This document shows, in pieces, positions 769 to 12,028 of a DNA stretch of 35,474 nucleotides. Origin of the DNA: Caldifarciminota bacterium. GTDB taxonomy: Bacteria; Hydrothermota; Tepidihabitantia; SM23-42. A program made the translations under genes and the position numbers. The stretch spans positions 1 to 35,474 of the forward strand of contig JALVOT010000004.1 of NCBI GenBank assembly GCA_027026255.1, given 5' to 3'. How positions within the stretch are numbered: the stretch's first letter is position 1; every line of letters starts with the position of its first letter. The notes beneath the pieces were generated by a model that saw only the letters and a list, made by a program, of their open reading frames with translations, did not search any database and was not told the origin of the DNA.

Positions 769-3700
769 CTATTGCAGCACCACAACCTTTTTTACACCAT
801 TATAGTCATCGGTTTGAAGGCACACAAAATAGATACCGGCACCAACTTTTTGACCTGCATTATTTCTTATATCCCAATCATCTACGTAGCATCCTGCTCT
901 AATCCGAGAAGAATTAACAATCGTGCGCACCAGCCTCCCAGCAATATCATATATCTTTATAGATAATTTTGTATTATGACCGACCTGATATCGAATCGCC
1001 ATATCCTTAATTGCCGGATTGGGATAAAGACTGACAATCTCTGTCCTGTCTGAATTTTTTAATAACCTCAACTCTTCTTCAATTCCCGGATTGACGAAGA
1101 TTCCAAAGAAGTGCATAATTGAATCGAGCAGTGCAGAACGGGTAGAAACTCCGCTTCCATCAATCAATCCACCAAGTTCAAAGGATGTCCCTACAGTTCG
1201 ATATGCTCCTGCATCCCGGGCAACACCGCAATCATAATTATCATCACCGTCTTTAAAGATCAAAAAGGCATCTGAACCCCGGGAAGAGATATGGTCGATC
1301 CGGGAATTTTCACCACCATAAGAGAAATTCATTCCCACCGTAAATGTGCTGTCCTGACCAAGAACCGGGCCCAAATCATTTGAACCGTCAGAGGTCGGGC
1401 TGATACCGAATAATGGACCAAAATCATAACCACCATGGGATGGATCATAATACCAGACATTCCCACCCTCTAAATATAACCTGCCATCCTGATTCTGGAG
1501 AAAATTAACCAATGCCCGAGCTTCAGGACTATTGTTTCGCAGCAGATAATTATCCGGATAAATTCCCGCACATACAAATACTGTCTGATACTTACTCAAA
1601 TCCTGGGCGAGGGTTGTGCCGTAATCACCAGCATAACCCAACTCAGTAAGCAAGGAATCTATCTGCTGGCCAGGAACGGGTGTCGGGTCGGGGTTCCAGA
1701 CATAATAATGTTTCCTGCCCACCGCAATATCAAGCTCAACTGTATCATCATAATTATCCGAAGAAACAAAAAGTTCAAAATGGGCCGTATGACCATTTGG
1801 AGTTGATGAAGATGCAGAGATATTAAAATGATCTGAGCTGTTTGTCCGCTCAGAATCCGGCATTATATTGCCAAATGTTCCGATTGAATCATTAATCACG
1901 ATATAAGTATCATCGGTGCGCAGTATACTATGGGTGTTTGTCGCCTCACGAGCTCCACTATTATGAAGTGTTACCACAAGGTCGGCAGTTTCGCCCGGCT
2001 CTAAAATACCATTATTACCATCTAATATCTGATAATCTGCGATATCAAGATTCGGCGAATTGGCCGAATGAACACTCTTAACTGCATCAAGGTCAAATCC
2101 TGCATATTGGCCGCTGGTTGAATTTCCATCATCAACAATCTTTACATATCGTGCCTCACTCAGCCCTGCTGCTGAAAGGTCAAAATTTGAAGTTCCGGTT
2201 GCGTGACCGCAGGAATGCCAGGTGCCATCCCAGGTATCACTTACAAATACCTCATAGCCTTCATCATTACCATCATCACCCTCATAAACCGTAAAATCAT
2301 AACCTGACGAATTTCTGATTGGAGTATTACGCCCCATATCCAGAACAATAAAACCTTCCCGGCCCAGAGAGAAGAAACGATTGTCCGCCAGCCCCAATGC
2401 AAATCTTGGCCTTGTTTTATTGCTGTCTTCAGCATGCCTTGAATATCCACAAAGCACAACCCGAAATGCGTAAAGATATGTAGAATCACTGCTGAGCAGG
2501 ATATCTCCAAGATTGATACTTCCGGTTGCCGGAACATTCACACCCCTGATAACCTTTGGGGCATAGTTGTTTGCCGAAACCCGCACATCATAGGTTCCCG
2601 GTGCAATCATCTTATGAAAGTCACCGAGATTGGGGTCGGTATAGATATCAATCCTCTCGGGATTTAAAAACTCTATGCGTGCATATAAAGGATTGCCGGT
2701 CGTTGAATCCTTTACTACTCCTTCAATACCCCAGCCCGCCCTTTCACAGACATCCATCAGGGCATCACGATTATTATAGCAGATCTGATCAATAGCCGCT
2801 GAACCTGAAGGTTCCTTAGTCTCTATGGTCCAGGCCAGGGCACCACTCACGCCGGTCGTATAATCCTGCAAAGAACCGGTAACCTGATACCAGTCATAGC
2901 CATTAATAATATTCAGATTTGCCGAATCTGCATAAATCTGGGAAATTGTAATAATATAACCGCTATCCGCTGGATCAGCCGGGTGATAATCCCAGGGATA
3001 GTTGACATACTGGGCAACTGAATGATAATTGAATTCAATGCTGATATTATTTTCTTCAAGGTGGGCTATAAAAACCTTATTTTCAATCTGCGACGATGGA
3101 CCGGGGCTGCCGCCCCAGCCGTTCCAGAAATATCCGTAATCACGATTCAGGTCCACACCATTGGCATTCTTTCTTGTTCCCGCCTCCTTTCCATCAGGGT
3201 TCAAAACAGGTAAAATCCAGAATTCACGATTATCCACCAGATTCCGCACCTGAGGATTGCCAGAGTAATTGGTCAAAAGATATCTTAAAAAATATAAGGT
3301 TATCTCAGTCCCGATATGCTCATCACCATGTATATTTCCAGCAAGTCGGATCTCGGGTTCCGATTCCTCAATTTTTGGATTATCAGTAACCCTCATCGCC
3401 CAGATCGCCCTGCCCTGAACACTGAAACCGATTGTATCCAATCGACAGATATCTGGATAATTTGCAGCAAATGAATCGAGCACGGCATAGACCTGAGCAT
3501 AGGTGTGGTAAAATCCCCGTTCAAATATCTCTTTTTTGTATCTTTTATAATCCGGAATCATTATTTCAACCCGGTAACCAGCATCTTTTAATATTTTAAT
3601 CTCTTTATCAGTGACCAAAGCCTTTACATAATCCCTGCCGGCATCAATAATTGTGATTTTGAATCTGTTCAACTTGTAAACCTCATTGTGCCTGATTAAT

Positions 3701-3786
3701 GGAATCTTAACCAGTCTTATTGTATCATTATCAGAAAAGGCACGGGCTATTATAGCCACTAATAATATAAATATATATTTCTTCAT
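769..3786 (-). CDS. Secreted M14-family zinc carboxypeptidase with C-terminal sorting-like domain
   Basis: Predicted extracellular metallocarboxypeptidase of 1005 aa. It has a signal peptide (residues 1-18, KK then a hydrophobic run ending RAFS) and an N-terminal propeptide-like region. The M14 domain spans about residues 90-345: zinc ligands H153 and E156 (HGDE), third ligand H255 (FNYHS), substrate-binding NRD at 214-216, and catalytic Glu E322 (WTIETKE). A carboxypeptidase-regulatory-like beta domain (about 352-425), a discoidin-like or surface beta domain (about 430-570), a CARDB-like segment, and a further alpha/beta domain follow. The C-terminal 85 residues are the FlgD/Por-type beta tail (YPNPA, IKIYDIAGRLVRT, AGIYFV), probably for outer-membrane export or anchoring. 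It is the last gene of a three-peptidase run, 66 bp after the S8 gene. The ribosome-binding site is weak. The M14 call is firm; the substrate is unknown. Confidence 0.9.
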   Translation of the reverse strand: MKKYIFILLVAIIARAFSDNDTIRLVKIPLIRHNEVYKLNRFKITIIDAGRDYVKALVTDKEIKILKDAGYRVEIMIPDYKRYKKEIFERGFYHTYAQVYAVLDSFAANYPDICRLDTIGFSVQGRAIWAMRVTDNPKIEESEPEIRLAGNIHGDEHIGTEITLYFLRYLLTNYSGNPQVRNLVDNREFWILPVLNPDGKEAGTRKNANGVDLNRDYGYFWNGWGGSPGPSSQIENKVFIAHLEENNISIEFNYHSVAQYVNYPWDYHPADPADSGYIITISQIYADSANLNIINGYDWYQVTGSLQDYTTGVSGALAWTIETKEPSGSAAIDQICYNNRDALMDVCERAGWGIEGVVKDSTTGNPLYARIEFLNPERIDIYTDPNLGDFHKMIAPGTYDVRVSANNYAPKVIRGVNVPATGSINLGDILLSSDSTYLYAFRVVLCGYSRHAEDSNKTRPRFALGLADNRFFSLGREGFIVLDMGRNTPIRNSSGYDFTVYEGDDGNDEGYEVFVSDTWDGTWHSCGHATGTSNFDLSAAGLSEARYVKIVDDGNSTSGQYAGFDLDAVKSVHSANSPNLDIADYQILDGNNGILEPGETADLVVTLHNSGAREATNTHSILRTDDTYIVINDSIGTFGNIMPDSERTNSSDHFNISASSSTPNGHTAHFELFVSSDNYDDTVELDIAVGRKHYYVWNPDPTPVPGQQIDSLLTELGYAGDYGTTLAQDLSKYQTVFVCAGIYPDNYLLRNNSPEARALVNFLQNQDGRLYLEGGNVWYYDPSHGGYDFGPLFGISPTSDGSNDLGPVLGQDSTFTVGMNFSYGGENSRIDHISSRGSDAFLIFKDGDDNYDCGVARDAGAYRTVGTSFELGGLIDGSGVSTRSALLDSIMHFFGIFVNPGIEEELRLLKNSDRTEIVSLYPNPAIKDMAIRYQVGHNTKLSIKIYDIAGRLVRTIVNSSRIRAGCYVDDWDIRNNAGQKVGAGIYFVCLQTDDYNGVKKVVVLQ

Positions 3787-3852
3787 TATTTTTTATTGAT
3801 AATCAGGTTATAGGTGAAAAGACATTTTGTCTGCCCACCTTAATTGTTATCA

Positions 3853-6800
3853 TCATCTCAGGAGTATCGTTTTTTCAACCTGCTGCTGATTCTCAGTGTA
3901 GACCTGAATGAAATAAACACCGGAAGATACCTCTCGATCGTTATCATCCATTCCGTCCCAGATAATCTGATTTAAAGGCCCGGCAGATAATCTATCAAAT
4001 TTTCGAATCAGGCGACCGGCAGCATCAAAGACTCTCAACTCAGCCTTATCCAGAGCGTCCGGGCTTATTGTATAATTGATTATGAATAACTTTGAAGATA
4101 TCGTAGGGTTGACATTCAAATAAAGCACATTGGTTCCAGCACCCGGTTTTTTCTCTGCCGCCCCACTGAAGTTTGTTAGATTACCAACCTCCCAGTCAAG
4201 AAGTGCCGGTTCACCCGGAGACTTTGTAATCCGATAAAGGAGTGCCCTTAACCTGAGTGTATTATAAGTAACTGTATCAGTAATATTCGCCAAAGAAACC
4301 GTATCAGTGACAAAGTTTGTAAAATTACCGGTTGAATTATTGGGAATTAATGCATCCGGCACTAATCGCCAGGTCGTGCTGTCAAAGTATTCAATCTGTA
4401 TACCGATTGAATCGCCGGCATTAGCCTTATGCCAGACAACATTTCCCCAATACCTACGCGGGTAGGTGGTGGAGAGGTCATTATAGATAACCGGTGAACT
4501 AACCACATCTCCAGAGTTATTCTGGTATGTATAAGAAAAAGAGAAAAGGATATTATCACAGGCGCTTGCCTTTCCCCAATTGAATGTGGATGCTCTGTCA
4601 TGATACATCCATTCAGCCTGAATCGAATCTGCAGGAAGGTGAGAGGTGAGATCAATCGTCACCGTTCTACTTATACTTGATGTATAGGAGGCGACCGTAT
4701 TCCAGCCACCCCAGGAATTACCGCTGAAGAATCTAACTTTCACATCAAGAACCTCACCGGTCTCGTTTTGACGAAAACCACAACCGTATCGTAATCGTAA
4801 ATTCGCCGCTGCAGAAGGAATATGGACCGCCGGTGAAATAAGTTCTTCATTATTATTAACTGTCCCATAACCTGCATCATCGTCTGAATAAAAGGCATAT
4901 CTTGTTCCGTAATCAGGTGGAGCATAATCACCGATATCCTGAGTGGTTCCGCCCTGCCATTTAATACCATCCCCGTTCCCATCAATCACGACCCAGCCTG
5001 CCGGAATACCTGATTCAAAGTCTTCAAATAAGAGTGTATCTTCAACAAAACCCGAAGATTGAAGCACAATGCTGTCACCCTGGATCCGGGTCATATTAAA
5101 GGTATCTACAACAAATTGCTCACCGGTTGTCTGAAACCAGGCACAGGTGTTTCCCGAAAGTGCAGTATTAACCGTAAAGGAACGAGAATCAGTATCCCTT
5201 GACCAGTATCCAGAACTCGTTGTATCACTTGCCCGCACTTTCCACCAATAGGTCTTTCCATTGGTTAACGCTGATGGAAATTTAAACTGTGCAACCGCAC
5301 CGCTGGCATAAGGAGAAGTAGTAATACTTTCCGGATGAGAAAACAATATATCCGTATCCCAGTATATCCTGTATATTACATCATCATTTTGGGGATCAAC
5401 TGTAGTAAATTTAAAAGTCGGGGTCAAATCAGGCAATTCAGCAAAGTTAAATGGACTGATAATAGTCGGGGTGGACGGCACCGTCGATTCTGGTGTGGCA
5501 TTAATTGCTGCCAAAGCATCAATCCTGCCGGCACCAAAAGCATTATCCTTACCGCTCGGACCAAGGTCAACCGCGGTCGTCTCAAGGATAGAATCAATCT
5601 GGGCACGTGTGAGATTATAATTCTTCTGAAGCATCAGGGCAACAGTCCCCGCAGTATGGGGAGTCGCCATTGAGGTGCCGCTGCCATTTAAATAACCATT
5701 ATTGTTATTGTAAGCGCAGGACTTGATATCCACCCCGGGAGCTGAAACATCAGGTGCGGTAAGACCCGGCGGATAACGATAATCATTAAAATTACTCACC
5801 GTATCCCAGCTCACCGGACCCCGACTGGAAAATGAAGCAATTGTATCGTTAACATCAGTTGCTCCGATACTCACCACATTGGACAGCGCACCGGTTGCCC
5901 CATTACCCGGATTCCGCCACGGCGGCGGCACATCACCGGGACAGCGAAGATTATTGGGCGGGCCTGCATTATTACCCTCATTACCGGCCGCAACAATCAT
6001 TATTATCCCTGCTGAACCAACATTATTACAAGCCGTCCGCCAGGTAGAACGCCTCGGACTCCAGGAATAGCTCCAGCCCGAGGACATTGAAATCAAATCA
6101 CCGCCATTGGAAGGTGAAAGCGGGGGTGAAACAACAAATTGCATTGCATCCCAGATCTGATTCTCCCCGGTAGTATCGGCTACCGACCGTACCCGCAAAG
6201 CCATAATCTGGGCATCCGGTGCCACACCACACTGCGAACCGGCTGTGCCGTCCGAAGCAATCGAACCCGCACAATGGGTGCCGTGCCCCCGAACATCCAT
6301 CGGGTCGTTATTATTATTTTCAAAGTTCCAGCCGTGATTTGGATAATTTGAATCGGTCCACATATGATCAGCAAGGTCCCTGTGCCTGTAATTAACGCCT
6401 GTATCAATAAGACCAACCACAATCCCGGCACCGGTATAGCCTAAAGCCCAAACCCGATTGGCACGAATCTTTAAAACCCCCCAGGCAATCTCACGGGTTT
6501 TGTCCTGAGGCACACTTGCCATCTTAAGCTTCTCAATCTCAAACGGTCTGAGGTCATAATCAATATAAAAGATATAATTACGCTTCTCCACCTCTCTAAT
6601 TATCTCTTCGACTGCCTCACAGTATATCGCATTAACAATCCAGAATGACTTTATATTTTTCACCTTGTTCTCTTTTTCCGCCTGGCGTAAAAATGCAAGC
6701 ATCTCTGCCTGGCGAATTCGGGAAAAATCCTTCAGCATCCGGGCGACCTTAACCCTTCTTTCGGGTCTGAATAATCCCCTGACCTGTGCCTCAATAAGCC

Positions 6801-6948
6801 GGGCATCTACCTGCTCCTTAAAGACGATATCAATCGGTATCAGCTCGCCCGAGCGTGTCTTTGAGATAACCTTTTTAAGGTCCGGACTTAAAAGGGCGAA
6901 TGCCGGAATAACTCCGATTAAAAACAACAACAGCATCAAACGCTTCAT
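3853..6948 (-). CDS. Secreted subtilisin-like serine peptidase (S8) with C-terminal sorting-like domain
   Basis: Predicted extracellular subtilase of 1031 aa. A signal peptide (1-18) is followed by an inhibitor-like prodomain to about residue 145. The S8 catalytic domain runs from about 165 to 490. Triad: D182 (LIDTGVNYRH), H222 (GHGTHCAG), S426 (GTSMATPH), with oxyanion Asn N323 (AAGNEG). Downstream are an FnIII-like module (about 500-600), a jelly-roll or MAM-like beta segment with DTLLFEDFESG near 640, and the C-terminal FlgD-like tail (RVFDAAGRLIRK, SGVYFIQV). The start is the ATG at 6948, preceded by AAGGAG with a good spacing. It lies 14 bp downstream of the second M14 gene and is probably cotranscribed. 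All catalytic residues are present, so it should be active. It may process itself or degrade external protein together with the two carboxypeptidases. Confidence 0.92.
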   Translation of the reverse strand: MKRLMLLLFLIGVIPAFALLSPDLKKVISKTRSGELIPIDIVFKEQVDARLIEAQVRGLFRPERRVKVARMLKDFSRIRQAEMLAFLRQAEKENKVKNIKSFWIVNAIYCEAVEEIIREVEKRNYIFYIDYDLRPFEIEKLKMASVPQDKTREIAWGVLKIRANRVWALGYTGAGIVVGLIDTGVNYRHRDLADHMWTDSNYPNHGWNFENNNNDPMDVRGHGTHCAGSIASDGTAGSQCGVAPDAQIMALRVRSVADTTGENQIWDAMQFVVSPPLSPSNGGDLISMSSGWSYSWSPRRSTWRTACNNVGSAGIIMIVAAGNEGNNAGPPNNLRCPGDVPPPWRNPGNGATGALSNVVSIGATDVNDTIASFSSRGPVSWDTVSNFNDYRYPPGLTAPDVSAPGVDIKSCAYNNNNGYLNGSGTSMATPHTAGTVALMLQKNYNLTRAQIDSILETTAVDLGPSGKDNAFGAGRIDALAAINATPESTVPSTPTIISPFNFAELPDLTPTFKFTTVDPQNDDVIYRIYWDTDILFSHPESITTSPYASGAVAQFKFPSALTNGKTYWWKVRASDTTSSGYWSRDTDSRSFTVNTALSGNTCAWFQTTGEQFVVDTFNMTRIQGDSIVLQSSGFVEDTLLFEDFESGIPAGWVVIDGNGDGIKWQGGTTQDIGDYAPPDYGTRYAFYSDDDAGYGTVNNNEELISPAVHIPSAAANLRLRYGCGFRQNETGEVLDVKVRFFSGNSWGGWNTVASYTSSISRTVTIDLTSHLPADSIQAEWMYHDRASTFNWGKASACDNILFSFSYTYQNNSGDVVSSPVIYNDLSTTYPRRYWGNVVWHKANAGDSIGIQIEYFDSTTWRLVPDALIPNNSTGNFTNFVTDTVSLANITDTVTYNTLRLRALLYRITKSPGEPALLDWEVGNLTNFSGAAEKKPGAGTNVLYLNVNPTISSKLFIINYTISPDALDKAELRVFDAAGRLIRKFDRLSAGPLNQIIWDGMDDNDREVSSGVYFIQVYTENQQQVEKTILLR

Positions 6949-6962
6949 AGATTCTCCTTAAT

Positions 6963-9158
6963 TTATTTTAAGCAAACAATCTTTCTGATACAGGTATCAT
7001 TTCCGGTATCCAGCTTGAGGAAGTAAATGCCCGGGGCTATATCATTCTCTCGGCCCCAGGTTATTTGCGAATGGTGCAAATTCTTGAATACTTTCAACAA
7101 CCTTCCGGTAGTATCATAGATTTTGAGTTCGGCTGATGGTCCATCGTATTTAATCACCGATGAATGGTAGAATGGATTGGGGTGTATCGAAAGTTTAAAT
7201 CTAATGGATTCAGGCTTCTGCTTTGTATCTTCAGTAATTCCAACAACTACATCCGCCTTTTCCAGCTGCGAATAGTCACCCCAGCCATAAGTGGTATTAT
7301 AACCCTTTACATAATAGTAGTATTCACCTTCTGGATGATTGGTAAATCTATAAGAGGTATCAGTAATACTTAAAGAAATCGTATCGACTTTCATAAACTG
7401 ACAGACTGGTGAGATATCATCAACATAAAAACCGGTTCTTAAGGTGTTACCGTCGGTCATTGAACGAAATCTGAAATAGACCGATTTTCCTTCCCGGGAA
7501 GAAAGGGATAAAGCCTTTCTAATCCACCCACCGGAATTCCCTGTATAGCGCATTGTATCGATACAAAACCACTCCTTTGTATTTTCTGAAACCTCAACTA
7601 CTGCAACATCACAGTTCAATTCTAAATCATACCAGCACCAGAAAATCAGAGAATCTCCGGGCTGAACAATATATGGATATGCGGTTCTGACTGCATGGTT
7701 CATATTATTGCTGTTGCCTGAGAAAAATGAATAAGACCCGGAATGTGAGCGGGTGTTCGTAAGTGTAAAGCCTTCAAGAATCCATCTTGAGGTTCCAGAT
7801 TCTAAATCATCCTCAATTACTGAAGGGTTTGAAAGCTCAACCAACGCCCATTTAACCGGATGGTTATCATAACTGTTCTTTGCATGCCAGTAAATAGTAA
7901 AATCGGCATTGACCGCACCTAAGGGATAGATTATCGGCGGCGGCACAAATCCCTCGGCAACCAGAATCAGAGAATCCGCAAATCCGGCCAGATACTTTGC
8001 CGCCTTGAATACCTGTCTTGAGATATTATCCAGGTCGCTCTGGGATTGATAAAATGATGTTCCAATCTCTGCCCCATAGAATAAAGCAGATAAACCCGCC
8101 ACCCATTTATTGTATCCATACACCCAATCCCGGGTATTACCGCAGGTTGGATAGGGATTATTATAGGATCGACCCGGATGATAGGTTCCACCACCAAGCC
8201 GATGCATCATTCCTGCCATATATGCACCCTTATTATCATACAGTATTGAATCCGGTGTGCCTTCACCCTTATAACCCCAGGGGTACATCACCTGTTCCCC
8301 ATAACTATGTAGAGAAAATCCAGTAGTAATCTTATGCTTACGAATATATGCGGCATAACCACGCACCTCATCACCGCTGAATGCATAAGCGCCGCAGAAT
8401 GTTTGTTGGGAAGGATAATGGGAAACCTGGCGTTCATCTGCAGCACCCCAATAACCATCAATTTCACCGTTGACCGCACCGCCGTAATTACGATTCGGAT
8501 CAGTGCCGACAGCACCACCAAAAGGTTCTCTGTTTTTACGCCACCGTCTCTGACCTGGATAATCATAGACATAACCATCCACATTAATCAGCGGAAAACA
8601 ATAAATCTGTGTAGTATTTATGATTTCTGTAATTTCTGGAACAACGCCGTAAGATTTGAGCATTGAATCGGCGAAAAAGAGCACCGCCTGGGGTGTTGCC
8701 CATTCCCTTGAATGATGGCAACCATCAATGGTAAATCCTGGCTCATCTTCTTCAACCCCGACATTATCCGAAATTTTAATTCCATAAATTCTTCTTCCTT
8801 CATAGGTGGTCAGGGGCAATGAATCGAGCATACATATTTCTGGGTATCTGTGGGCAAGACGCCGGAGTGAATCATTTATTTCTGCATAAGAAAGATAAGA
8901 ACCACGCATTTTTTTCTTTTCATATTCAAGGCTGTGCACTGTTACCTCATAAGGAAATCCTGAAGCAATTACCCTTTGTAAACCCTGCTCATCAACCACC
9001 AGGTCATACCATTCACCATACCTGCCCGCAGCAATATCCATCGGTTTTTTGGAAATACGCATCAGGTCCTTCCAGGAATGACAATACACCCTCACAATTT
9101 TATCCTGGGCAACGCCGAGAATAAAAAAACAAAATATAATCAACAATAACCTCTTCAT
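6963..9158 (-). CDS. Secreted M14-family zinc carboxypeptidase, carboxypeptidase T/A-like, with C-terminal sorting-like domain
   Basis: First gene of the peptidase run, 731 aa from the ATG at 9158. That start is preferred to the GTG just upstream because GGAGG sits 4 nt before it. Signal peptide at residues 1-18. A propeptide-like region runs to about 85. The M14 domain covers about 88-400: ligands H149 and E152 (HHSRE), third ligand H284 (FSLHSYGE), an Arg-rich RRWRKNR at 204-210, PNRNYGG at 221-227, and catalytic E364 (YGAEIG). This pattern is closer to carboxypeptidase T/A than the downstream paralogue. After it come a jelly-roll-like segment (DDLESGTSRW near 450) and the FlgD-like tail (HPNPF, KIYDTTGRLLK, GIYFLKL). 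The three peptidases together could trim proteins from internal cuts to free amino acids outside the cell. Confidence 0.92.
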   Translation of the reverse strand: MKRLLLIIFCFFILGVAQDKIVRVYCHSWKDLMRISKKPMDIAAGRYGEWYDLVVDEQGLQRVIASGFPYEVTVHSLEYEKKKMRGSYLSYAEINDSLRRLAHRYPEICMLDSLPLTTYEGRRIYGIKISDNVGVEEDEPGFTIDGCHHSREWATPQAVLFFADSMLKSYGVVPEITEIINTTQIYCFPLINVDGYVYDYPGQRRWRKNREPFGGAVGTDPNRNYGGAVNGEIDGYWGAADERQVSHYPSQQTFCGAYAFSGDEVRGYAAYIRKHKITTGFSLHSYGEQVMYPWGYKGEGTPDSILYDNKGAYMAGMMHRLGGGTYHPGRSYNNPYPTCGNTRDWVYGYNKWVAGLSALFYGAEIGTSFYQSQSDLDNISRQVFKAAKYLAGFADSLILVAEGFVPPPIIYPLGAVNADFTIYWHAKNSYDNHPVKWALVELSNPSVIEDDLESGTSRWILEGFTLTNTRSHSGSYSFFSGNSNNMNHAVRTAYPYIVQPGDSLIFWCWYDLELNCDVAVVEVSENTKEWFCIDTMRYTGNSGGWIRKALSLSSREGKSVYFRFRSMTDGNTLRTGFYVDDISPVCQFMKVDTISLSITDTSYRFTNHPEGEYYYYVKGYNTTYGWGDYSQLEKADVVVGITEDTKQKPESIRFKLSIHPNPFYHSSVIKYDGPSAELKIYDTTGRLLKVFKNLHHSQITWGRENDIAPGIYFLKLDTGNDTCIRKIVCLK

Positions 9159-9222
9159 CACGCCTCCTCTCTGCTCATAGGGTCAAGCCTTTCCAGTATA
9201 AACCCTTGATTTTAATCAAATA

Positions 9223-9250
9223 ATTATAACAATTATATCCCCCCTGTCAA
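9223..9250 (-). promoter_or_regulatory. Promoter of the secreted peptidase operon
   Basis: On the minus strand a perfect TTGACA (9245-9250) and a perfect TATAAT (9223-9228) are separated by 16 nt. Transcription should start near 9216, leaving a leader of about 57 nt with GGAGG before the start codon at 9158. It can drive all three peptidase genes. Confidence 0.85.
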
Positions 9251-9315
9251 TATTCTGCTGTACCGGGTAATATTTGGGACTGTGTATAAACTTTTCCTGG
9301 AAAAGATAAAAAAAT

Positions 9316-9376
9316 GGTGTATCCTTCCTTATGGTCGGATAATATGGGTTAAATGACCTTGAAAAAAGGATACACC
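9316..9376. repeat. 11-bp inverted repeat next to the transposase remnant
   Basis: GGTGTATCCTT at 9316-9326 is the exact complement of AAGGATACACC at 9366-9376. It lies directly before the GTG of the IS256-type remnant, so it may be the old left end or a regulatory hairpin of that insertion sequence. No matching right end was found. Confidence 0.5.
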
Positions 9377-9784
9377 GTGAACAACCCATCTGGATTATCT
9401 GAGACCAACTTTAATGAAATCTTTCGTGATGTCAAGGTGCGTTCTCGGGATAATATAATATTAAGGAGGTGTTGAGGGACAAATGGTTTGAAGGAGGTAT
9501 TAGAGGATGCGATGAAGGCTGAGGTAGTTGATTATTCGAAGACACGGCGTTATCAGGTGGAGTATTTAGGGAAGGTTAAAGGTATTTATTTAGCGGGTAG
9601 TTATCGGGTGGCGGTGAAGTGGTTTAAGGTATGGTGTCGGCGCTGGTGTGATAAGGTGCCTAAGGCGGTCAGGTGTTTAGAGCGGGATATTGAGAATTTA
9701 TTAGTTTTCTATGAACAAAATAACTGCCAATGTGTTTTAGCACTAAATTACCATTTATCTGAAGAAGAATTATTAGAAGAATGA
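9377..9784 (+). pseudogene. IS256-family (Mutator-type) transposase remnant
   Basis: One reading frame runs from a GTG at 9377, is stopped by TGA at 9473-9475, and continues from about 9488 to a TGA ending at 9784. The part before the stop (NNPSGLSETNFNEIF) and LKEVLEDAMKAEVVDY look like the N-terminus of an IS256 transposase. The later part, VKGIYLAGSY... then VPKAVRCLERDIENLLVFYE, matches the late region of that family. The segment between them, with most of the DDE catalytic core, is missing, and the usual RTTNxIE C-terminus is absent. It is therefore a dead, internally deleted element with an in-frame stop. The wider -35/-10 context does not suggest current expression. Confidence 0.75.
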
Positions 9785-9807
9785 TTGACATATCCTATCT
9801 CCTTTTT

Positions 9808-9836
9808 CCGGGTGGTGGTTAAAGTCCACCACCCGG
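9808..9836. terminator. Strong stem-loop between the transposase remnant and the small secreted gene
   Basis: A perfect 11-bp stem (CCGGGTGGTGG / CCACCACCCGG) with a 7-nt loop, placed between two convergent genes. Neither side carries a clean run of U, so it may act as a bidirectional terminator or an RNA-stabilising hairpin rather than a textbook intrinsic terminator. Confidence 0.55.
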
Positions 9837-9844
9837 AATTGTCT

Positions 9845-10186
9845 TTATTTCTTTGGACTGTATGGACGATAGCGATAGAGAACGAAATTCACACGTTTCA
9901 TACCGTTATTTATTGTCACATATTTATCTAACGACTGCCACAATTTACCATTGATTACCTTGGATGCTACCATGATGTACCTGCCATTTGGTAACCAGGG
10001 TACCCAGTATCCACCGCTTTTCGTGGTATAAACATAACCTGTATCTGGACCCCACCATTGAACCTTGGCATGGTACTCACCATTATTACTATTATAGCGT
10101 TTAACATCTCCATAGGGCCCACCATTAGCCCATACCAGAGTGCTGAACAAGAATACTGCAATCAATCCAAGCCATATCCCTTTCAT
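9845..10186 (-). CDS. Small secreted protein under a sigma54-type promoter
   Basis: 113 aa. The start codon has a good Shine-Dalgarno (AAGGAG, 6 nt spacing). Residues 1-20 are a clear signal peptide (K, then GLIAVFLFSTLVWA, cleavage near WANG). The mature part of about 93 residues is rich in Tyr, Trp, Gly and Asn, and its pattern (GRYIMVASKVINGKLWQS... then NNGMKRVNFVLY) resembles a single carboxypeptidase-regulatory or transthyretin-like beta sandwich. I do not recognise a family. There is no cysteine or obvious catalytic motif. It is not obviously cotranscribed with anything: upstream there are 334 bp holding a sigma54 promoter and palindromic sites, then the activator gene. It could be a secreted structural, adhesive or stress-responsive protein; the function is unknown. 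Confidence 0.75.
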   Translation of the reverse strand: MKGIWLGLIAVFLFSTLVWANGGPYGDVKRYNSNNGEYHAKVQWWGPDTGYVYTTKSGGYWVPWLPNGRYIMVASKVINGKLWQSLDKYVTINNGMKRVNFVLYRYRPYSPKK

Positions 10187-10341
10187 GATTATCTCCTTAA
10201 TATTATAATATTATAGACTTTTTTTATTTATCAAGAATCGACCCCGGAGAAAGAAGACCTCAGTTGCCCAACACGGCTCAGGGATCAGGGTCGAATCCGA
10301 ATCCATTATAAGCAGAGCACGACCCCTCTGCCTATTCTATA

Positions 10342-10357
10342 TGCAAAACCCGTGCCA
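10342..10357 (-). promoter_or_regulatory. Sigma54 (-24/-12) promoter for the small secreted gene
   Basis: Minus-strand TGGCACGGGTTTTGCA matches the RpoN consensus TGGCAC-N5-TTGCA at every defined position. Transcription would start near 10330 and run toward the gene at 10186, giving a leader of about 144 nt. A sigma54 activator is encoded directly upstream, and palindromic sites lie at enhancer distance. Confidence 0.88.
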
Positions 10358-10396
10358 GATTAAAGGTTTGAAATTTCAAGTTTTTTGTACTTAAGA

Positions 10397-10511
10397 GTCT
10401 CATTCCGTGAGACAGCTTTTATAATCTTACCTTCAAATCGAAGTAAATACAATCCAAGTATATATTTATTTAATTCTCACTCAGTGAGACGGACATCTCA
10501 ATAAATAAGAC
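10397..10511. promoter_or_regulatory. Three palindromic enhancer-type sites upstream of the sigma54 promoter
   Basis: Site 1 (10397-10413) is GTCTCATTCCGTGAGAC, a perfect 6-bp dyad. Site 2 (10474-10490) is TTCTCACTCAGTGAGAC, with one end mismatched. Site 3 (10495-10511) is ATCTCAATAAATAAGAC, a degenerate copy. Centres are 77 and 21 bp apart, the latter two helical turns. They lie about 75, 152 and 173 bp upstream of the predicted start point, the normal range for activator binding to a sigma54 promoter. They probably bind the Fis-type helix-turn-helix protein encoded next door; that is inference. Confidence 0.75.
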
Positions 10512-10520
10512 AAATCCTGT

Positions 10521-11450
10521 TTACACAGAGCTTCGCTCTTTATTTGCAATCTTAAGATACCGATAAAGCTGCGCCCGAGAAATCTTAAGCATCTGACAGG
10601 TCGATCTGATATTCCGATTATTCATCAAAAAATGCTCATAAATCAATCGTGCCTTATACTGCTTGGTCATCTCATTAATTGAACCAATTTTTCTGTTTTT
10701 AATACATAATCCTTCTACATCAATATATTCTTTTTCACAGGTTAAATAAGCCTGAATGAGAATTTTCTCCAGTTCCCGCACATTACCAGGATAATCATAC
10801 GATATCATCCGCTCCATCGCAGAACTCGTTAATCCATCAACATTTCCAGGATATCTCTTTTTTATTCTGGTAAATAAATGCTTAATAAGGCCTGGTATCT
10901 CACCCCTGCGCTCCCGTAACGGAGGAATCGTAATTACCGGGGCACTTATCCTGTGATATAGATCCTCCCGAAACTGGCCATTCCTGACCATCTCCTTGAG
11001 ATTTCGATTCGTCGCAAAGATAAACCTAACATCAACCTTTCTCTCCCTGTTGGTACCCAGTGGACAAACCTTCTTTGTCTCTAAAACCCGCAAAAATTTA
11101 CCCTGCACCTCAAGCGGCAAATCACCAATCTCATCCAAAAAAAGTGTGCCCTTAGAAGCCTCAATAATCTTACCATTATAGTCCTTACAGGCATCAGTAA
11201 ATGCACCCTTTTTATAACCAAATAATTCAGATTCAAATAATGGTGCAGGTACAGCCAAACAGTTAACCACAATAAATGGAGATAATCGCCGGGAACTGGC
11301 ATTATGAATCGCTGAGGCAAAGAGTTCTTTTCCAGTTCCGGTCTCGCCCAATAATAATATATCTATATCCTGTAAAGCAAGCCGCCGGGCAAATACTTTT
11401 ATTTCCTCTAAACCTACGATATCATCAAAGGTATAAGGTGCAGACTCCAT
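10521..11450 (-). CDS. Sigma54-dependent activator lacking a receiver domain (PspF-like)
   Basis: 309 aa from the ATG at 11450, which has AAGGAGG just upstream; an upstream TTG would start inside that Shine-Dalgarno. The AAA+ domain begins almost at residue 1, so no sensory domain is present, as in PspF. Walker A GETGTGKE (35-42), sigma54-contact loop GAFTDA (82-87, a common variant of GAFTGA), Walker B GTLFLDE (101-107), and sensor/arginine-finger region FREDLYHR. The C-terminus is a Fis-type helix-turn-helix (NIRSTCQMLKISRAQLYRYLK). Without its own sensor it must be controlled by a partner protein, by its own level, or be constitutive. The perfect sigma54 promoter and dyads immediately downstream of its gene make the small secreted protein the obvious target. 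It overlaps the 3' end of a short upstream ORF. Confidence 0.92.
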   Translation of the reverse strand: MESAPYTFDDIVGLEEIKVFARRLALQDIDILLLGETGTGKELFASAIHNASSRRLSPFIVVNCLAVPAPLFESELFGYKKGAFTDACKDYNGKIIEASKGTLFLDEIGDLPLEVQGKFLRVLETKKVCPLGTNRERKVDVRFIFATNRNLKEMVRNGQFREDLYHRISAPVITIPPLRERRGEIPGLIKHLFTRIKKRYPGNVDGLTSSAMERMISYDYPGNVRELEKILIQAYLTCEKEYIDVEGLCIKNRKIGSINEMTKQYKARLIYEHFLMNNRNIRSTCQMLKISRAQLYRYLKIANKERSSV

Positions 11451-11697
11451 CACAACCTCCTTCAACCAAAATCCCGGGATTATAATTGCTTGTGTTATAT
11501 GAAAAATCCTTTAATGGAATGACACAAAATCCTGCGGTCTGGAATGTAGTAATTACTCCGTATCCGGTTGAATCCTGACAGAATCCAAACCGGTTAACAA
11601 CCCTCTCCATCAGTATCTGGACAGGGCAGCAAAGAGGACCAGGAAGCATTACAGCAAAAACCCTCAAGCCCATAACTGCCTTACTTTTCAAATTCAT
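11425..11697 (-). CDS. Possible small hypothetical protein overlapping the activator start
   Basis: An ORF of 90 codons starting at the ATG at 11697, preceded by AAAGGAG at a suitable distance, and overlapping the first 26 bases of the activator gene in another frame. The protein has a basic start and a moderately hydrophobic stretch (VFAVMLPGPLCCPV), five or more cysteines and a Gly-rich end (VEGGCDGVC). I recognise no family. The good ribosome-binding site, and the promoter near 11813-11840 with only this ORF between it and the activator, support translation. If real, it would be translationally coupled to the activator and could be its missing sensor or leader peptide. It could also be a chance ORF. 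Confidence 0.4.
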   Translation of the reverse strand: MNLKSKAVMGLRVFAVMLPGPLCCPVQILMERVVNRFGFCQDSTGYGVITTFQTAGFCVIPLKDFSYNTSNYNPGILVEGGCDGVCTLYL

Positions 11698-11812
11698 CAC
11701 AACTCCTTTCTTTACTATAATCCTTATTACCGTATCAATCCGGGCAGACTACCACCCCTGTCGCTTACATTCAGAACTTTAATTTTTTGCTTTTCATAAA
11801 AAATTTCTTTAC

Positions 11813-11840
11813 ATTTTATCTGAAATCTCCCGGAAGTCAA
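11813..11840 (-). promoter_or_regulatory. Promoter for the small ORF and sigma54 activator
   Basis: Minus-strand TTGACT (11835-11840), 16-nt spacer, TAAAAT (11813-11818). The expected start is near 11806, about 108 nt before the ATG at 11697. The -35 box lies 13 nt from the TGACTCC end of degenerate repeat A4. Confidence 0.6.
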
Positions 11841-11853
11841 CCACTAAAATTTC

Positions 11854-12028
11854 TGACTCCTTTCCACTTTTGTAATACTTGTGGTATGTATTATCATAGT
11901 AGAAAAAGAAGGATCCACCTGCGAAAAAATCAAGGGTTTATCTTCACCCAGCATATCAATTTAGAAAAGCAAAAAAAATTATTAAAAAGTTATTGAGTAT
12001 TTCTCGTTCTGATTCAACAATCTCCTGA
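11854..12028 (-). repeat. Repeat family A, degenerate copy A4
   Basis: It begins with TGACTCCTTTCCACTTTT, like the end of the full copies, and finishes with GTTATTGAGTATTTCTCGTT...CAACAATCTCCTG, a diverged version of the GTTGTTGAGTATTTTTCATC...AACAATTTC segment seen at about 24832 and 27961. The GC-rich core is absent. An older, internally deleted copy. Confidence 0.6.

Follow-up and report, generated by a model that had tools for sequence, protein, structure and literature searches.

The window, here meaning the whole analysed stretch of 35,474 nucleotides, belongs to a 2.1-Mb genome that is 99% complete. This genome contains rpoN, on whose presence the preliminary description had made its reading depend, and encodes ten full sigma54 activators, about six of which sit near a sigma54 promoter. 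On the minus strand of the window, a putative sigma70-type promoter is followed by a 91-aa ORF, an activator gene, three dyads, a palindrome, a sigma54 promoter, a 155-nt leader, and a 113-aa gene. Behind this gene come a hairpin with a 13-bp stem and then the remnant of an IS256-type element. The coordinates originally given were correct. The features are as follows:

9400..9784, plus strand: IS256/Mutator-type transposase remnant bounding the unit, on the opposite strand to the cargo gene
9806..9838, no strand assigned: hairpin with a 13-bp stem after the cargo gene, a possible terminator, with a T-rich tail on the plus side
9845..10186, minus strand: cargo gene for a 113-aa secreted protein, with signal peptide and mature part of about 93 aa; orphan, perhaps one beta-sandwich domain
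10342..10357, minus strand: sigma54 -24/-12 promoter, TGGCAC-N5-TTGCA, with TATA behind it, a feature shared by several further promoters of this genome
10370..10377, minus strand: GAAATTTC palindrome, 12 bp upstream of TGGCAC, a proposed lineage-specific additional promoter element
10397..10413, no strand assigned: predicted enhancer dyad 1, a perfect match to GTCTCA-N5-TGAGAC, with its centre at -27.5 relative to the palindrome
10474..10490, no strand assigned: predicted enhancer dyad 2, one mismatch, 77 bp from dyad 1
10495..10511, no strand assigned: predicted enhancer dyad 3, two mismatches, 21 bp from dyad 2, aligning with a perfect dyad of genome G026
10521..11450, minus strand: sigma54 activator, 309 aa from ATG 11450, with AAA+ domain (GAFTDA), lid, and helix-turn-helix, without a sensor domain
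11425..11697, minus strand: 91-aa ORF, 5' remnant of a decayed gene for a secreted toroid (SQHop cyclase-like)/CARDB protein, homology ending at about 11470
11813..11840, minus strand: putative sigma70-type promoter, TTGACT-N16-TAAAAT, in the same place as TTGACT-N16-TAGTAT in genome G001; likely drives the remnant and the activator

Pieces of the transposase remnant recur at 83-93% identity elsewhere in the same genome (C3:141521-142508). Three consecutive secreted peptidases are encoded at 769-9161 of the window, namely an M14 carboxypeptidase, an S8 subtilase, and another M14 carboxypeptidase; both M14 ORFs carry Por_Secre_tail-type C-terminal sorting domains.

The 113-aa gene, which has a ribosome-binding site and the hairpin behind it, is the sole gene on the transcript, as the preliminary description had stated. 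Its product was also rightly described there as a protein of no known family. Among 150 related genomes only weak matches were found, two of them to the N-terminal domains of receptor-like proteins, and no homologue was found in collections of genome and viral contigs, plasmids, phages, and PHROGs, or in the PDB. The score against CarboxypepD_reg (PF13620) was 14.5 bits, below the gathering cut-off of 32.3 bits; hhalign to two CarboxypepD_reg-type domains gave a probability of 57%. No kinship with the two downstream carboxypeptidases was seen. The structure prediction that had been suggested for the small protein gave a single-sequence model with pLDDT 48.6, which is unusable. Very tentatively, the protein may form one beta-sandwich domain. 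The gene has a low but positive coding score (0.125 bits per codon, between the 1st and 5th percentile of real gene pieces). Because this low score is combined with orphan status, the gene may be young or decaying. A structured leader RNA between promoter and gene was considered and rejected (no Rfam match, fold z-score -1.3).

The -24/-12 promoter at 10342-10357 was confirmed, with the sequence TGGCACGGGTTTTGCA. It fits TGGCAC-N5-TTGC(A/T) upstream of a gene in an rpoN-bearing genome. The perfect TGGCAC-N5-TTGCA form occurs at nine sites in the 2.1-Mb genome; one (13083) is intragenic and the others are mostly promoter-like. When one mismatch was allowed, 40 genomic sites were found, compared with six for the reversed-pattern control. 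In genome G000, three near-identical sigma54 promoters (L018, L019, and L021; C5:5893, C8:128931, and C8:153248) head ORFs of about 70-90 aa that encode a Fis-like helix-turn-helix on its own.

The palindrome GAAATTTC lies upstream of sigma54 promoters of this lineage. Seventeen of 150 genomes contain the combination GAAATTTC-N(9-39)-TGGCAC-N5-TTGC, with 32 occurrences in all (reversed control, 0), and it is nearly confined to the family and order of the window. The palindrome itself has a background frequency of 23 in 400 kb. The gap to TGGCAC is exactly 12 in 17 of 30 loci (binomial 3.6e-18 against a flat gap, a value inflated by near-identical copies), and the remaining gaps group at 13-14, 20-22, and 30-34. 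In the sigma54 promoters of this family and order (the window and loci L128-L157), the distance from the palindrome down to TGGCAC is either 12 bp or larger by about one or two helical turns. rpoN was found in 64 of 70 relatives, and most rpoN-bearing relatives outside the order have sigma54-type sites without GAAATTTC. A search of one literature library for a link between GAAATTTC and sigma54 found no paper. We propose, as a reading with about even chances, that in this bacterial order GAAATTTC is a third core element of sigma54 promoters at about -46 to -39, recognised either by a protein or by the alpha subunit of the polymerase. It would set a fixed geometry together with rigid enhancer positions, the dyad centres lying at distances of 27, 105, and 127 bp from the palindrome in one arrangement and of 49 and 120 bp in the other. 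The A3T3 core of the palindrome could also act as intrinsically bent DNA.

All three dyads reported earlier were recovered, with none, one, and two mismatches for dyads 1, 2, and 3, respectively; dyad 3 is eroded. The perfect GTCTCA-N5-TGAGAC occurs once in the 2.1-Mb genome, and forms with at most one mismatch are found in only five places genome-wide. Since a 400-kb sample held no dyad with at most one mismatch and 12 with two, about 0.005 dyads with up to two mismatches would be expected in the 163-bp gap, where three were observed. By sequence comparison, the dyads cluster between the activator gene and the promoter, and are private to the 10342-10357 promoter. Their centres lie 27.5, 104.5, and 125.5 bp from the palindrome.

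The activator ortholog in G026 has a recognition helix identical to that of the window activator (SRAQLYRYLKI), so the same dyads were predicted in the G026 genome. The prediction held. G026 contains three GTCTCA-dyad clusters: in two of them three dyads are perfect, and the remaining one has a pair of dyads with one mismatch each. The seven other genomes searched had only scattered isolated sites. The dyad spacings are 21 and 79 bp in the G026 modules versus 21 and 77 bp in the window. When the four modules were aligned, the starts of dyad 3, dyad 2, dyad 1, GAAATTTC, and TGGCAC were at 20/41/118/154/174 in the window and at 21/42/121/157/178 in the G026 modules, and the degenerate dyad 3 of the window coincided with a perfect G026 site. 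The third G026 module is a hybrid, in which a dyad of the TGACA type takes the place of dyad 1. In each of the three G026 modules (L253-L255), the interval from dyad 2 to dyad 1 contains two perfect DnaA-box-like sequences (TGTGGATAA), which are absent in the window. No GTCTCA dyads were found beside the activator orthologs themselves; in G026 they are at other loci. The sensor-less G025 ortholog has no sigma54 promoter or dyads directly beside it, and the sensor-less G003 ortholog has a module about 12 kb away.

The arrays of G011 and G003 use TGACA/TGTCA half-sites at comparable positions from the palindrome (-27/-105/-126.5, -27/-106.5/-127.5, and -27/-112/-133). One G011 copy (C86:11343) differs, with dyads at -27 and -48.5. 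There is also a second class of promoters with dyads at about -49, some with another at about -120. A dyad centre falls in the -27 band in 8 of 24 distinct promoters and in the -49 band in 9 of 24 (shuffles, about 0.1); because the 24 promoters were chosen by their palindrome and some of them are related copies, these counts are not fully independent. The cargo in G026, G011, and G003 is mostly peptide maturation, including radical-SAM/SPASM maturases, an M50-type maturation protease, and a 47-aa Cys-containing peptide, and in one G026 module it is a secreted metallophosphoesterase; these matches are at superfamily level, below the equivalog cut-offs, and one cargo is unreadable at a contig end. 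On the evidence of these alignments, the enhancer geometry is kept across genera while half-sites and cargo change. On G011 contig C86 (L089, about 8826-11871 of the reverse complement), a sigma54 promoter with TGACA dyads precedes genes for the 47-aa Cys-containing peptide, a radical-SAM/SPASM enzyme, and an MFS-like transporter. This candidate new peptide-maturation cluster is 1.9 kb from the activator ortholog.

The activator belongs to the sigma54 AAA+ proteins (PF00158, E=1.1e-61), with the AAA lid and the motifs GETGTGKE and FREDLYHR (Walker motifs and arginine fingers). ATG 11450, with its good ribosome-binding site, is a likelier start than TTG 11465. As the preliminary description had noted, the sigma54-contact loop reads GAFTDA in place of GAFTGA, and no N-terminal domain was found; the AAA+ domain begins within the first residues, as in type Ic (sensor-less) activators. 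The Fis-type helix-turn-helix described there is recognisable at the C-terminus by alignment with those of the orthologs and 4L4U, although the Pfam HTH_8 match is below cut-off (E=0.044). The nearest relatives share 52-62% identity and are mostly about 600 aa or longer. A GAF domain is present in both close orthologs scanned (G026 and G011), and in a quick tree the G025 and G003 activators likewise begin at the AAA+ domain. No trace of a GAF region was seen upstream of the window activator. The description as PspF-like is therefore not supported as a lineage: the activator comes from a GAF-type clade and lost its sensor. The equivalog scores were 211 versus the 443.6 bits required for PspF, with no psp neighbour, and 272 versus the 476 bits required for NorR, with no GAF domain. 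In five family genomes (L089, L093-L095, and L097), the activator ortholog is preceded by an ORF of 78-80 aa that resembles an AsnC-type ligand-binding domain standing alone; this ORF is absent in the window.

About 4% of sigma54 activators are without a signal and/or DNA-binding domain (PMC3162934). In NorR, which requires three enhancer sites, removal of the GAF domain leads to constitutive activity, and the G266D variant, with the same loop change to GAFTDA, fully escapes GAF repression (PMC2941729). Because it has no sensor and carries the loop that frees NorR, the window activator probably works at any time that it is expressed. GAFTDA occurs in 11 of 11 clade members, while GAFTGA is found in nearly all outsiders. 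Since the GAF-bearing orthologs share GAFTDA, the loop alone is no proof of lost control in this clade.

The 91-aa ORF (11425-11697) had been proposed as a sensor coupled to the activator. In favour of this, the ORF is equipped with a ribosome-binding site, and it overlaps the beginning of the activator gene. However, it matches the N-terminus, signal peptide included, of a 426-aa secreted ORF in same-genus G001 (43% identity, E=1.8e-14). This relative is intact, and carries squalene-cyclase-like alpha/alpha-toroid and CARDB domains; the window ORF is the decayed 5' end of such a gene. DNA similarity (67% over 336 columns) also reaches the region upstream of the gene, including the promoter, and ends just before the activator (about 11470). 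No other clade member has the ORF beside its activator, and its coding score is weak. A sensor role is therefore extremely unlikely. Origin of the ORF as a remnant of the activator's own GAF region was also considered, and no similarity was found. The TTGACT-N16-TANNAT box is in the same position in the window and G001; as a sigma70-type promoter it is a consensus match only, positionally conserved in one relative. Since the homology ends at the ribosome-binding site of the activator, the activator appears to have captured the promoter of the decayed gene. The simplest reading of this region is that the gene decayed and that its promoter has come to serve the activator.

Taken together, these comparisons suggest that the locus is probably a rewired member of a lineage-specific sigma54 promoter module. 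An activator of the GAF-sensor/AAA+/helix-turn-helix clade has lost its sensor, and its gene now follows the putative promoter and the initial codons of a secreted-protein gene that decayed. The activator would bind the three dyads as a hexamer, loop to the sigma54 polymerase, and use ATP to open it at TGGCAC-N5-TTGCA. One small secreted protein, predicted to be beta-rich, would thereby be switched on. The signal would be read by the captured promoter, and the activity of the activator would follow its own expression. It is very likely that the activator drives the 10342-10357 promoter. Its activity is somewhat more probably ungated by a signal than gated. The chances that the captured promoter is the real input are evenly balanced. 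Most likely, judging from the sequence, the sensor-less and expression-controlled activator drives only the 113-aa gene. The idea put forward in the preliminary description, that one secreted protein has a sigma54 unit of its own, is supported by the private dyads, the three-site geometry recurring across genera, and the helix-based dyad prediction in G026. The remark made there that no such pairing was familiar holds for the cargo, which has no homologue, but is overstated for the arrangement: activators near a sigma54 promoter are common in this genome, and nearly the same geometry occurs in related genera.

Several other explanations might be considered. The unit could be the decaying leftover of a lost peptide-maturation regulon, in which the regulator and promoter survive and the 113-aa ORF is a non-functional stand-in. 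Most readable three-site modules in G026, G011, and G003 drive radical-SAM or M50-protease peptide-maturation genes, while no Radical_SAM match was found among the scanned window ORFs. The lost sensor, the eroded dyad 3, the orphan cargo with its low coding score, and the flanking IS and pseudogene remnants also fit decay. The promoter, palindrome, dyad 1, and AAA+ motifs are nevertheless intact, as are the ribosome-binding site and signal peptide of the cargo gene, and we consider this explanation unlikely, though deserving some weight. PspA is an inhibitor of PspF, and a similar unlinked inhibitor protein that senses envelope stress might hold the sensor-less activator off. The domain layout is shared with PspF and the cargo is predicted to be exported; however, the PspF equivalog cut-off was missed, the activator descends from the GAF clade, and no psp gene adjoins it. 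Such control is quite improbable. With ten full activators in the genome, another one might open the 10342-10357 promoter while the window activator serves other promoters. This is very unlikely, since the genome has no second dyad pair and the site geometry is shared with modules of the activator's own clade.

Enhancers in model bacteria are freely movable, and sigma54 enhancers are a textbook case of position-tolerant control. The near-constant site distances seen here contrast with this view. Because the activator-site distances are near-constant across genera and the palindrome has a preferred distance from the -24 box, the question of what fixes sigma54 enhancer geometry becomes testable. 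The rewired activator may also be regarded as a natural version of laboratory GAF-deletion mutants: its sensor is lost, and its input apparently now enters through the promoter of its own gene. Moreover, the dyads of this regulator clade predict new peptide-maturation clusters.

The locus can be compared with several known systems. It resembles NorR/norVW in that a GAF-clade sigma54 activator has three enhancer sites upstream of one promoter (PMC2941729). Either the GAFTDA variant or GAF deletion makes NorR signal-independent, and the window activator combines GAFTDA with the absence of GAF; NorR, however, keeps its GAF sensor and GAFTGA, whereas the window locus has no sensor, other dyads, a putatively captured promoter, and an orphan secreted target. 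The PspF/type Ic activators also consist of an AAA+ domain and a helix-turn-helix without a sensory domain (PMC3162934), but the window activator arose independently by sensor loss within the GAF clade and has no pspA partner. In the PilR-pilin-like and other local pairs of the window genome, an activator likewise adjoins a sigma54 promoter with GAAATTTC; for example, a response-regulator activator adjoins a prepilin-like gene at C14:205002 (L022). These activators keep a receiver or other sensor, and their targets are of recognisable families. The three-site modules of G026, G011, and G003 are nearly the same in dyad geometry, palindrome, and promoter, and orthologous activators are present in the same genomes. 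They differ in that the activator keeps GAF in G026 and G011 (in G003 it is lost too), the activator gene is not directly beside the modules, and the cargo is different, mostly radical-SAM peptide maturases.
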